Part shown: positions 48,472 to 64,000 of the stretch, in pieces
How the letters are laid out: every line of letters starts with the position of its first letter
Numbering within the stretch: the stretch's first letter is position 1
NCBI RefSeq assembly: GCF_004519335.1
Contig: NZ_SOZD01000001.1
Location: forward strand, 496,001-560,000
DNA: 64,000 nucleotides
DNA from: Jiella endophytica
GTDB taxonomy: Bacteria; Pseudomonadota; Alphaproteobacteria; Rhizobiales; Rhizobiaceae
Direction: 5' to 3'
Program-made: the position numbers and the translations under genes
Notes under the pieces: model-generated
What the model was told of the DNA's origin: nothing
The model's database searches: none
The model's input: the letters and a program-made list of their open reading frames with translations, nothing else

Positions 48472-50378
48472 TGGACCGTTTCCTCCAGCGTTTCGAGAAC
48501 GTTCTCGACCCGTTCGAGGACGACGCCGGATCGGGCGAAGACGGCGTCTATCGCACCGGCCATCTCAGGCCGTTGCCGGCCGAGACCAATGCCTTTATCT
48601 GGCATTTTGCCCTGCAGGCGAAGGGGCCGCTGATCGGGCTCCTGATCGCCGGCGGTCTCACCGGCGGCATCGAGGCGGTGCTGTTCACCGGCGTCGGCTG
48701 GCTGGTCGACGCGCTGGGGCACTCGACGCCGGAGACCCTAGTCTCGGACCATTTCTGGCTGATCGCCGGTCTGCTCTTCGTCACGCTGATCGGCCGCGCG
48801 GCGCTGCTCTTCGCTTCGTCCGTGCTCGAAGAACAGGTGATAAGCCCCAGCTTCTACAACAGGATTCGTTGGCAGAGCTATCGCCGTCTGATGGAGCAGG
48901 CCTACAGCTTCTTCCAGAACGATTTCGGCGGACGCCTTGCCCAGAAGGTCCAGCAGGTCGGCATGGCGACCGGCGACTTCATCACCACGATCCTCCAGAC
49001 CTTCTGGTCCTTCGTCACCTTCATCTTCCTGACGGTGACGATCCTCGGGGCGATCGACTGGCGCATGGCGCTGGTGCTCGTCCTGTGGGTCGCCGGCTAT
49101 GTCTGGATCGTCCGCAATCTGCTGCCGAAGATCCGCGAATACGGCCGGGCAAGCGCCGATGCGCGCTCGATCGTGTCGGGCCGTGTCGTCGACAGCTTCA
49201 CCAACATCCTGTCGGTGAAGCTCTTCGATTCCTCGCGGCAGGAGGACGCCTTCGTCAAGGACGGCTTCGTCTACCTCGTCGACATGACCCGTCGCTCGAC
49301 CCGCGCGATTACCGAGGTGCGCACCGTCGTGGCGCTGCTCAACGGCTTCATGATGAGCGGCGTCGGGGTCATCGCGGTGATGGGCTGGCAGGCGGGTTCG
49401 GTCACCGCCGGCGGTGTCGCGACGGCGCTTGGCCTCGTCCTGCGCCTCAACCAGATGTCCGGCTGGATGATGTTCAACATCAACGGCCTCGTGCGCAACT
49501 ACGGCACCATCCAGGACGCGGTGGCGACGATCACACGGCTGCCGACGCTGATCGATGCCCCCGATGCCAGGCCGCTCGTTCCTGCCAAAGGAGCGATCCG
49601 TTACGAGGACGTCACCTTCCACTATGGCAAGGGCGGCGGCGTCATCGACCACCTGTCGCTGGATATCAGGCCGGGGGAGAAGGTCGGCCTCGTCGGCCGC
49701 TCGGGCGCCGGCAAGACGACCCTCGTCAACCTCCTCCTGCGGCTCTACGATCTCGAGGGCGGCCGCATCCTGATCGACGGGCAGGATATCGCCGGGGTTA
49801 CCCAGCATTCGCTGCGCGCCGCAATCGGCGTCGTCACCCAGGATACCTCGCTTCTCCACCGCTCGATCCGCGACAACATCGCCTTCGGCAAGCCGGAGGC
49901 CGAGGAGGACGACGTTGTTCTCGCCGCCGAACGGGCGAATGCCGAGGACTTCATCCCCTCCTTGCGCGATCCGAAGGGCCGCACCGGCTACGACGCCCAT
50001 GTCGGCGAGCGCGGCATCAAGCTTTCCGGCGGCCAGCGCCAGCGGATCGCCATTGCCAGGGTGCTTCTGAAGAACGCCCCGATCCTCGTCCTCGACGAGG
50101 CGACGTCGGCGCTCGATTCCGAGGTCGAGGCGGCGATCCAGGAGAATCTCGTGCGCATGATGGAGGGCAAGACCGTCATCGCCATCGCCCACCGCCTGTC
50201 GACCATCGCCGCGATGGACCGGCTGATCGTGCTCGACAAGGGAGCGATCGTCGAGGAGGGCAGCCACGAGGACCTGCTGGCGAAGAACGGCCTCTATGCC
50301 AGCCTCTGGCGCCGCCAGTCCGGCGGCTTCCTCTTTACTGAATCTGCCGCAGAGGCGGAAAGCGCCGCCGCTGAGTGA
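48468..50378 (+). CDS. ABC exporter half-transporter, second of a pair
   Basis: The 636-residue protein is homologous to the preceding gene product over its whole length (shared FHYGKGGGV, RPGEKVGLVGRSGAGK, VTQDTSLLHRSIRDN). It has six membrane helices and a complete ATPase domain. Two adjacent ATG codons (48468 and 48471) are possible; the first makes an ATGA overlap with the upstream stop. Tandem duplication followed by heterodimer formation is the likely origin. The C-terminus ends in an Ala/Glu-rich tail. Confidence 0.93.
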   Translation: MMDRFLQRFENVLDPFEDDAGSGEDGVYRTGHLRPLPAETNAFIWHFALQAKGPLIGLLIAGGLTGGIEAVLFTGVGWLVDALGHSTPETLVSDHFWLIAGLLFVTLIGRAALLFASSVLEEQVISPSFYNRIRWQSYRRLMEQAYSFFQNDFGGRLAQKVQQVGMATGDFITTILQTFWSFVTFIFLTVTILGAIDWRMALVLVLWVAGYVWIVRNLLPKIREYGRASADARSIVSGRVVDSFTNILSVKLFDSSRQEDAFVKDGFVYLVDMTRRSTRAITEVRTVVALLNGFMMSGVGVIAVMGWQAGSVTAGGVATALGLVLRLNQMSGWMMFNINGLVRNYGTIQDAVATITRLPTLIDAPDARPLVPAKGAIRYEDVTFHYGKGGGVIDHLSLDIRPGEKVGLVGRSGAGKTTLVNLLLRLYDLEGGRILIDGQDIAGVTQHSLRAAIGVVTQDTSLLHRSIRDNIAFGKPEAEEDDVVLAAERANAEDFIPSLRDPKGRTGYDAHVGERGIKLSGGQRQRIAIARVLLKNAPILVLDEATSALDSEVEAAIQENLVRMMEGKTVIAIAHRLSTIAAMDRLIVLDKGAIVEEGSHEDLLAKNGLYASLWRRQSGGFLFTESAAEAESAAAE

Positions 50379-61258: not shown

Positions 61259-62553
61259 GCCTGCCGGAAGGCGTGAGCGCGGCGGATGCCTCCCGCTCGG
61301 CGCGGCCGTTCTCGCGCTTCGAATGGATGATCGCCGGGCGCTATCTGCGCTCGCGCCGCCGCGACGCCGGCGTCTCCGTCATCGCCGGCTTCTCCTTCGT
61401 CGGCATCATGCTCGGCGTCGCCGCGCTGATCATCGTCATGTCGGTGATGAACGGCTTTCGCGGCGAACTCCTGATGCGCATCCTCGGCGTCAACGGCCAC
61501 GTCATCCTCTATCCGATCGACCAGCCGCTCACCGACTACGAGCAGATCGCCAAACGCATCGAGGGCGTCGACGGCGTCCAGTTCGTCATGCCGATGGTGC
61601 AGGGGCAGGTACTCGCGCAGGGGCCGAACACCGGCTCCACCGGCGCGCTGATCCGCGGCGTGCGGCTGAACGATCTGAAGATGCTCGCGCCGGTTTCCGG
61701 CAACATCAAGCTCGGCACGCTGGAAGGCTTCGACACCGGCGAGGGCGTCGCCGTCGGCAGCCGGCTCGCCTCTTCGCTCGGCCTGAGGCTCGGCGACAAC
61801 ATCACCCTGATCTCCCCCGACGGCGACGTCACGGCCTTCGGCACGACGCCGCGGGTCAAGGCCTATCCGGTCAGCGCGATCTTCGAGATCGGCATGTCGG
61901 AATACGACGCGGCCTATGTCTATATGCCGCTTTCGGAGGCCCAGCTGTTCTTCAACCAGGAGGACCGGGTCCAGTCGATCGAGATCTTCGTCGATCATCC
62001 GGACCAGGTCGCGAGCCTGCAGCCGAAGATCGAGGCGGCGGCGGGGCGGCCGGTCTACACCGTCACCTGGCAGAACCAGAACGAGAGCTTCTTCTCGGCG
62101 CTGAATGTCGAGCGCAACGTCATGTTCATCATCCTGACGCTGATCGTCCTCGTCGCGGCGCTGAACATCATCTCCGGCCTGTTCATGCTGGTGAAGGACA
62201 AGGGCCGCGACATCGCCATCCTGCGGACGATGGGCGCCACCAAGGGCGCGGTGATGCGCGTCTTCCTGATCACCGGCGCCTCGATCGGCTTTTCCGGCAC
62301 GCTCGCCGGCTTCGTCCTCGGCCTCTTGTTCTGCATCAACATCGAGAACATCCGGCAGTTCTTCTCCTGGATCACCGGCGTCGTCCTGTTCAATCCGGAG
62401 TTCTATTTCCTCAGCCAGTTGCCGGCCGAGGTCGATCCGAGCGAGGTGATCCTCGTCGTCGCCATGGCGATCGGCCTGTCTTTCCTGGCGACGATCCTTC
62501 CCTCCTGGCGGGCCTCGCGGCTCGATCCCGTCGAGGCATTGCGGTACGAATGA
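61255..62553 (+). CDS. lolC: Lipoprotein-releasing ABC permease LolC/LolE
   Basis: The 432-residue permease has the N-terminal signature [16 protein letters not shown], a first membrane helix (about 38-62), a large periplasmic domain and three C-terminal helices with [21 protein letters not shown]. With LolD it extracts lipoproteins from the inner membrane for delivery to LolA. Only one permease gene is present, so a homodimer (LolF type) is likely. It overlaps proS and lolD by ATGA on both sides. Confidence 0.95.
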
Positions 62554-63245
62554 TGGCGGAAAACCATGCCCTGCGGCTCGCTGCCGTCGGCAAAGAATAT
62601 CTGCAGGGCGAAAACCGTCTCACCATCCTCGATGCCGCCGAGCTGACGCTCGCGCCCGGCGAGATGGTGGCGCTGGTCGCGCCCTCCGGCGCCGGCAAGT
62701 CGACGCTGCTCCACATCGCCGGTCTTCTCGACCGGCCGGATACCGGCGAGGTCTATGTCGGCGGCGTCGCGTCTGGCACCCTCGGCGACGAGGCGCGTAC
62801 GGCGATGCGCCGGCAGGCGATCGGCTTCGTCTACCAGTTCCACCACCTGCTGCCGGAATTCTCGGCGCTGGAAAACGTCATGCTGCCGCAGATGATCGGC
62901 GGCCTCGACCGCAAGGCGGCTTCGGCAAGAGCCCAGGAACTCCTCGACTACATGCGCATCGGCGCCCGCTCCGAGCATCGGCCGGCCGAGCTCTCCGGCG
63001 GCGAGCAGCAGCGTGTCGCGATCGCCCGGGCGGTTGCCAACTCGCCGCATGTGCTTCTTGCCGACGAGCCGACCGGCAATCTCGACCCGACCACCTCGGG
63101 CTATGTCTTCGACGCTCTGACGGCGCTGGTCCGCCAGTCGGGCGTGGCGGCGCTGATCGCCACCCACAACCACGATCTCGCCCGGCGGATGGATCACGCG
63201 ATCACCCTCGAAGCCGGCAAGATCGTCCCCCTCGACATGAGCTGA
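62550..63245 (+). CDS. lolD: Lipoprotein-releasing ABC ATPase LolD
   Basis: The 231-residue ATPase has APSGAGKST (Walker A), LSGGEQQR (signature) and [12 protein letters not shown] (Walker B), typical of the LolD/MacB group. Two adjacent ATG codons exist (62550, 62553); the first makes the ATGA overlap with lolC. It powers lipoprotein release. Confidence 0.96.
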
Positions 63246-63270
63246 CCTTCCCGCCCCACCGCGGCCAGCA

Positions 63271-63302
63271 GCATCGACTTCGAAATCGGCATCGATTTCG
63301 GT
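63271..63302. repeat. Diverged copy of the GCATCGA...ATCGATTTCGG intergenic repeat
   Basis: GCATCGACTTCGAAATCGGC followed by ATCGATTTCGG matches the core of the element at 33501-33546 (shared TCGG-ATCGATTTC). It lies just after lolD. Confidence 0.4.
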
Positions 63303-63467
63303 AGGCGCTCCGTGTCGATCTGAAAAGACCGATAATCTGACGTGACAGCCGGCGGGCCATTCCCGCCGGTCCGCGCTCCTGTGCTTGCATAACAATCAGA
63401 TAGCCTCAGAATTGGTAGCCGGCTACGTGAAAAGCACGCCTGGCCGCCGAAAGCTGCTTGCCAATCG

Positions 63468-63482
63468 GAACAAAATAAGAAC
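63468..63482. promoter_or_regulatory. LexA (SOS) box
   Basis: GAACAAAATAAGAAC is GAAC-N7-GAAC, the exact reverse complement of the alphaproteobacterial LexA consensus GTTC-N7-GTTC, in an AT-rich patch 36 bp before the ATG of a 28-residue gene and about 320 bp before dnaE. Confidence 0.75.
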
Positions 63483-63517
63483 AAATGGCATACACACGGA
63501 AAACAGAGGTGCTTGCC

Positions 63518-63604
63518 ATGATCGCTTTCGCCAAGGACGTCCTGTCGCTCGCCGCCATTTCGAGCTTCATCTTCGCCCTCAGCCTCGTCGTCCACGCGGT
63601 CTGA
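63518..63604 (+). CDS. 28-residue single-pass membrane peptide, probably SOS-induced (SidA-like)
   Basis: ATG 63518 with AGAGGT at 8-bp spacing opens a 28-residue frame: MIAFAKDVLSLAAISSFIFA then LSLVVHAV. Residues 8-28 form one hydrophobic helix after a short N-terminus with one Lys and one Asp. A LexA box lies 36 bp upstream. In Caulobacter the SOS-induced SidA is a 29-residue inner-membrane peptide that blocks division through FtsW. Size, topology and control match, but I cannot show homology. Translation is inferred only from the ribosome site and context. Confidence 0.65.
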   Translation: MIAFAKDVLSLAAISSFIFALSLVVHAV

Positions 63605-63799
63605 TCGCCGGAGGCGCCAAGGCGCTCCGCAGGGGCCCGCCGCGTCGAATTCTGGGGACGGGGCCGCCTTCGTCCTTTTCGCCGCGCTTCGCTGGCCTTA
63701 CCCCTGCGGGCAGGCTCATGCGCCGGTCCGCCGGCAGCCCGGCGACTAGCGGCGGCGTCTGCCGCAATTCTGTCGCCGGAAGACATTCGAGGTGTCGCC

Positions 63800-64000
63800 A
63801 TGACGCAAACCGGCGCTGCGTTGCCCTTCGTCCATCTTCGCGTCCACAGCTCCTTCTCGCTGCTCGAAGGGGCGCTGAAGCTCGACCAGATCATCAAGTT
63901 CGCGGCCGGTGACGGCGCGCCGGCGATCGGCATCGCCGACACCAACAATCTTTTCGGCGCGCTGGAATTCTCCGAGAAGGCCTCGAAGGCCGGGATCCAG
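63800..64000 (+). CDS. dnaE: DNA polymerase III alpha subunit, N-terminal part (cut by window edge)
   Basis: The frame from ATG 63800 stays open to the window end (67 codons). [20 protein letters not shown] and [18 protein letters not shown] are the start of the PHP domain of DnaE, the replicative polymerase catalytic subunit. The order lolC - lolD - dnaE is usual in Rhizobiales. A 195-bp gap, without any feature I can name, separates it from the SOS-type peptide gene, so it may share that promoter. Confidence 0.93.

Follow-up and report, generated by a model that had tools for sequence, protein, structure and literature searches.

What is encoded by the very short open reading frame that lies in front of dnaE in Jiella endophytica, directly behind a perfect LexA box? 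The original prediction, made on a window of 64,000 nucleotides (the whole stretch of DNA analyzed here), was an unannotated, SOS-controlled division inhibitor resembling SidA of Caulobacter. SidA is a 29-residue, SOS-induced inner-membrane protein that acts on and binds FtsW (PMC4211646). The predicted succession of a perfect GAAC-N7-GAAC box, a ribosome-binding site, a 28-codon frame for a hydrophobic helix, and dnaE was confirmed by inspection of the sequence (Table 1). The peptide has 28 residues and forms one hydrophobic helix with a hydropathy peak of 2.38 over 17 residues. Based on sequence kinship and analogy, we consider it highly probable that this peptide is the orthologue of Caulobacter SidA and would block the late divisome.

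Table 1. Coordinates and basis of the features at the locus (positions within the window).
Feature	Position	Strand	Basis
lolD, conserved upstream neighbor	62553..63245	+	NCBIfam TIGR02211, E 1.8e-73, below curated cut-off
Putative -35 hexamer TTGCCA	63458..63463	+	TTG[AC]C exactly five bases 5' of the box at 10/10 genus loci
LexA operator GAACAAAATAAGAAC, perfect GAAC-N7-GAAC	63468..63482	+	sequence inspection, conserved place; perfect boxes also before lexA and uvrA in the genome
Putative -10 hexamer ACAAAT, overlapping the operator end	63481..63486	+	17-nt spacing from TTGCCA
Ribosome-binding site AGAGG	63505..63509	+	sequence
28-codon frame, SidA-type membrane peptide MIAFAKDVLSLAAISSFIFALSLVVHAV	63518..63604	+	ATG at 63518, stop ends at 63604
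dnaE, 5' part (DNA polymerase III alpha)	63800..64000	+	NCBIfam NF004226, E 1.9e-18

A scan of positions 63200-63860 for a consensus promoter found none, so the promoter was read from the spacing of the two hexamers. AAAT directly follows the box in eight of the ten loci of the genus. The operator would thus sit in the spacer of the putative promoter, which bound LexA would be expected to block. An alternative in-frame ATG at 63485, which would yield 39 residues, falls inside the putative -10 hexamer and was rejected, and a 28-residue frame with the start equivalent to 63518 and a purine-rich site before it is found in eight of the nine other copies of the genus. For these two reasons, the 28-residue form is the likely product; frames of this length are listed in all ten copies. 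Four members of the peptide group gave no Pfam match and no NCBIfam model above its cut-off, which fits the view that the gene has been missed by annotation, and annotation across the order may be incomplete in this respect.

Perfect LexA boxes are common by chance, both in the window (two observed, 1.57 expected) and in the genome (107, compared with 69 for a backwards control pattern). The bare box count was therefore set aside as evidence, and the case rests on the conservation of the box beside the frame. The second perfect box of the window (48501-48515, minus strand) has a G+C-rich core with no recognized SOS gene behind it and is probably a chance occurrence. We also read 16 box regions of the genome, picked mainly for A+T-rich cores from 100 of the 107 boxes, and compared the downstream proteins of four of them with NCBIfam. 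LexA, 38 nt downstream of its box, and a radical-SAM repair-type protein scored above the cut-off; one box was followed by a UvrA fragment and one by an ImuA-like protein that scored below the cut-off. Three regions of the same genome (L371, L372, and L373) have perfect boxes with A+T-rich cores and are possible further LexA targets.

As bare boxes are so frequent, a chance frame beside a chance box was weighed as an explanation. A protein search for the peptide in 61 genomes, in which matches at E<=1 were counted, gave matches in 17, namely in the genome itself, in all nine others of the genus, and in seven more. Of these seven, the four with the better matches (L011-L014) show a perfect box 5' of the frame; the other three (L015-L017) and one additional site, L018, appear to be chance matches. 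Within the genus, the frame was kept in all ten genomes, each time with a perfect box 34-45 nt 5' of the ATG. Codon analysis of the ten copies gave a pooled pS of 0.43 and a pN of 0.15 (pN/pS 0.34), with pN below pS in 43 of the 45 pairs, and the shifted frames gave ratios of 0.97 and 3.1. On the comparison of these sequences, the 28-codon frame is established as coding and under purifying selection.

The conservation of frame and box was followed beyond the genus in 316 regions upstream of dnaE. These regions, a subset of those found, comprised the window itself, 72 regions from its family, 49 from the order, 86 from the class (of 289 genomes), 28 of 30 requested from Caulobacteraceae, and the best 80 of 587 named loci, two of which had less than 400 nt upstream. 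With a profile built from 15 family peptides, 105 matches at E<=1 were obtained among 3345 pieces of the forward strand, compared with one among 3129 pieces of the reverse strand and one among 3847 pieces of reversed sequence. After two profile rounds, the frame was recognized in 120 of the 316 regions: the window (1/1), 40/72 from the family, 30/49 from the order, 7/86 from the class, 27/28 from Caulobacteraceae, and 15/80 of the best named loci among 587. In the remaining 79 of the 86 class-wide regions, the profile saw no frame at dnaE. Five loci had been sliced wrongly at contig ends (L034, L050, L081, L090, and L099); mending them revealed the frame in L081 (E 1.5e-9) and L090 (E 0.006) and a box in L099, raising the counts to 122/316 overall and 32/49 for the order. 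All other survey figures are those from before this correction.

Of the 120 frames, 99 were preceded by a perfect box at a distance of at most 90 nt, compared with 0-5 for five control patterns before the same frames; 16 frames had only a one-mismatch box and five had none. When the 12 seeds of the profile were set aside, 88 of the 108 other frames had the perfect box (seeds themselves, 11/12). A ribosome-binding site was assigned by rule to 110 of the 120 frames. Start codons were likewise chosen by rule, and the resulting lengths of L287 (61 residues) and L082 (114 residues) are implausible. The same peptide is carried by a record of Ancylobacter polymorphus (L241) and an order genome (L103), on which the reading of the order as Hyphomicrobiales is based; the family is presumably Rhizobiaceae in the GTDB sense. 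In 38 of the loci read, lolD precedes dnaE without a recognized frame. Eighteen of the 196 regions that the profile left unmatched contained the combination of box, ribosome site, and helix frame, which six control patterns gave 0 or 1 times in all and the reverse strand not at all; these 18 regions may hold strongly diverged forms that can be recognized just by operator, place, and helix. The control strand of L098 gave one profile match (E 3.4e-6 after iteration) and has two perfect boxes; this match is possibly an inverted copy. On the reverse strand upstream of dnaE in L098 and L040, the perfect boxes point away from dnaE.

In a wider search, the peptide was found in 263 of the 297 family genomes and in 247 of the 273 good ones. 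Of the 34 unmatched genomes, 20 were listed, seven of them with at most 2 Mb and 13 larger; at least one is a false miss, as G399 does have the frame at dnaE. Twenty-six of 28 loci from this search have a perfect box, some of them from genomes already read. Four genomes (G025, G370, G401, and G943) gave two to four matches each, which may be extra gene copies.

The frame ends 195 nt before dnaE with no terminator-like site in between, so read-through into dnaE is possible and the frame could act as a leader that regulates dnaE translation or transcription. However, 31 of 32 family genomes without the frame at dnaE matched elsewhere (weakest E 0.006), as did three of eight order genomes, weakly. 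When 30 of these moved loci were read (L386-L415), 28 had the perfect box, 28 the 28-residue reading, and in 19 the immediate 5' neighbor was lolD, in the same orientation. As the peptide often stands right behind lolD away from dnaE, the leader reading is mostly refuted, and we regard it as very improbable; one moved locus, L409, lies only about 1.4 kb from dnaE. The frequent position behind lolD on the same strand also suggests that it was dnaE that moved and the peptide that stayed. The moved loci and the family-wide presence, together with the conservation and codon ratio in the genus and the survey boxes compared with controls, refute the pairing of a chance frame with a chance box, to which we assign next to no probability. 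The conservation of frame and LexA box among relatives, on which the original prediction depended, was thus borne out.

To relate the peptide to SidA itself, we used the solved MipZ of Caulobacter (2xj4) as a tag for Caulobacter genomes. In the class sample, one family stood out (67%), and in two of its 249 genomes MipZ was 100% identical over 264 residues. Both have a 29-residue frame with GGAGG before dnaE (L295 and L293, differing by two substitutions), with one perfect and two one-mismatch boxes, matching the published size and regulation of SidA. Among the best 80 of 587 named loci, 29-residue forms also occur in Brevundimonas diminuta, Phenylobacterium deserti, and two Caulobacter sp.; for some of these forms, every box present has one mismatch. 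In Caulobacter crescentus, dnaE is CC1926 and sidA is CCNA_02004, and from this numbering, alongside the loci read, we take sidA to adjoin dnaE. The putative assignment of published sidA to the vibrioides-type frame is based on these gene numbers and on size.

The profile built solely from the window's family found 9 of the 28 Caulobacteraceae regions at E<=0.05, the best being L199 (E 4e-6), L286 (1e-4), and L195 (4e-4). The vibrioides-type frame L295 was below significance (E 0.67) and L293 was absent from the matches at E<=1, so the chain of kinship runs through intermediates. The strong scores of Caulobacteraceae in later rounds are partly by construction, as those profiles contain members of this group. 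A profile-profile comparison of 23 family and 12 Caulobacteraceae peptides by hhalign gave a probability of 94.8 and an E of 5e-8, aligning columns 1-19 to 1-19 without gaps, that is, 19 of the 28 columns. F17 is invariant across 77 different 28-mers of the family and 29 different 29-residue forms of Caulobacteraceae. In both groups, position 7 is D or E, position 10 is S or A, and position 13 is small; position 11 is L or F, with M in 1% of the family peptides. Conservation of a helix face was rejected as evidence (p 0.11, not significant). The same neighbor dnaE, partly lolD, the same size, and the ungapped profile match support reading the kinship with SidA as orthology, in agreement with the original designation as SidA-like. 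Since 13 of the 27 loci from Caulobacteraceae likewise have lolD before the frame, lolD-peptide-dnaE is probably the ancestral order.

We consider it somewhat more likely than not that SidA, rather than being peculiar to Caulobacter, was the original SOS checkpoint on cell division in much of Alphaproteobacteria, reaching from Caulobacteraceae as far as Hyphomicrobiales, which grow at the pole, and that further families have forms that have diverged strongly. If so, DNA damage would be tied to FtsW-driven wall synthesis in polar growers. The peptide provides Hyphomicrobiales with a concrete candidate for the division stop under DNA damage. In the part of the literature covered, we found no report of SidA in Hyphomicrobiales, which does not prove that there is none. 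What was a single Caulobacter peptide can now be treated as a family, for which an alignment, an operator, and marker neighbors are available, and this opens the conserved residues and the FtsW contact to cross-complementation tests.

The mechanism that we propose follows that of SidA. Upon DNA damage, RecA would trigger the self-cleavage of LexA and thereby free the operator, and the peptide would be made and insert into the inner membrane. By analogy, it would then bind FtsW, together with FtsI and FtsN, in the late divisome and keep septal wall synthesis switched off until the damage has been repaired and LexA is back. The contact is likely to involve F17, the acidic residue at position 7, and the small residues at positions 10 and 13. 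The presumed block is based on the two-state model of FtsW/FtsI/FtsN (PMC4211646).

The main rival explanation is a membrane-active peptide of the TisB/DinQ type, that is, an SOS-induced single helix that disturbs the membrane and slows growth, leaving the divisome untouched. TisB and DinQ, which we set beside the window peptide by description, are short SOS-induced membrane peptides of similar size. However, both act on the membrane itself, and the kinship and shared place with SidA-type frames speak against this explanation, which we consider unlikely. Slightly less probable still is a relative of SidA by descent whose target in Hyphomicrobiales is a different one in the envelope or the cell cycle. 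These bacteria grow at the pole, and the family and Caulobacteraceae do not agree in the final third of the helix, but the same five positions are constrained in both groups. An action on the late divisome remains our preferred reading.

Among other known inhibitors, SulA is not known to be a single-helix membrane peptide. This Escherichia coli protein is also an SOS-induced division inhibitor, but its target is FtsZ, and DidA of Caulobacter is a small, damage-induced membrane division inhibitor like SidA, but has 71 residues, is SOS-independent, and binds FtsN (for both, PMC4211646). YneA, ChiZ, and SosA are SOS-induced membrane division inhibitors modeled on FtsW like SidA (PMC13396833), but belong to other phyla and are likened here by description, not sequence. 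SidA itself shares with the window peptide the single helix, predicted LexA boxes, the place before dnaE, and the pattern [DE]7, [SA]10, [LF]11, small 13, F17. In contrast, W19 and M20, invariant in the SidA-type peptides of Caulobacteraceae, are lacking in the window peptide and not invariant in its family, and the spacing of the -35 motif to the box differs, TTGAC being found in 2 of 19 Caulobacteraceae loci with any spacing tested. The upstream neighbor differs as well: the vibrioides-type locus L295 has an opposite-strand frame, nucleoside hydrolase-like by eye, where lolD stands in the window and in other Caulobacteraceae loci.
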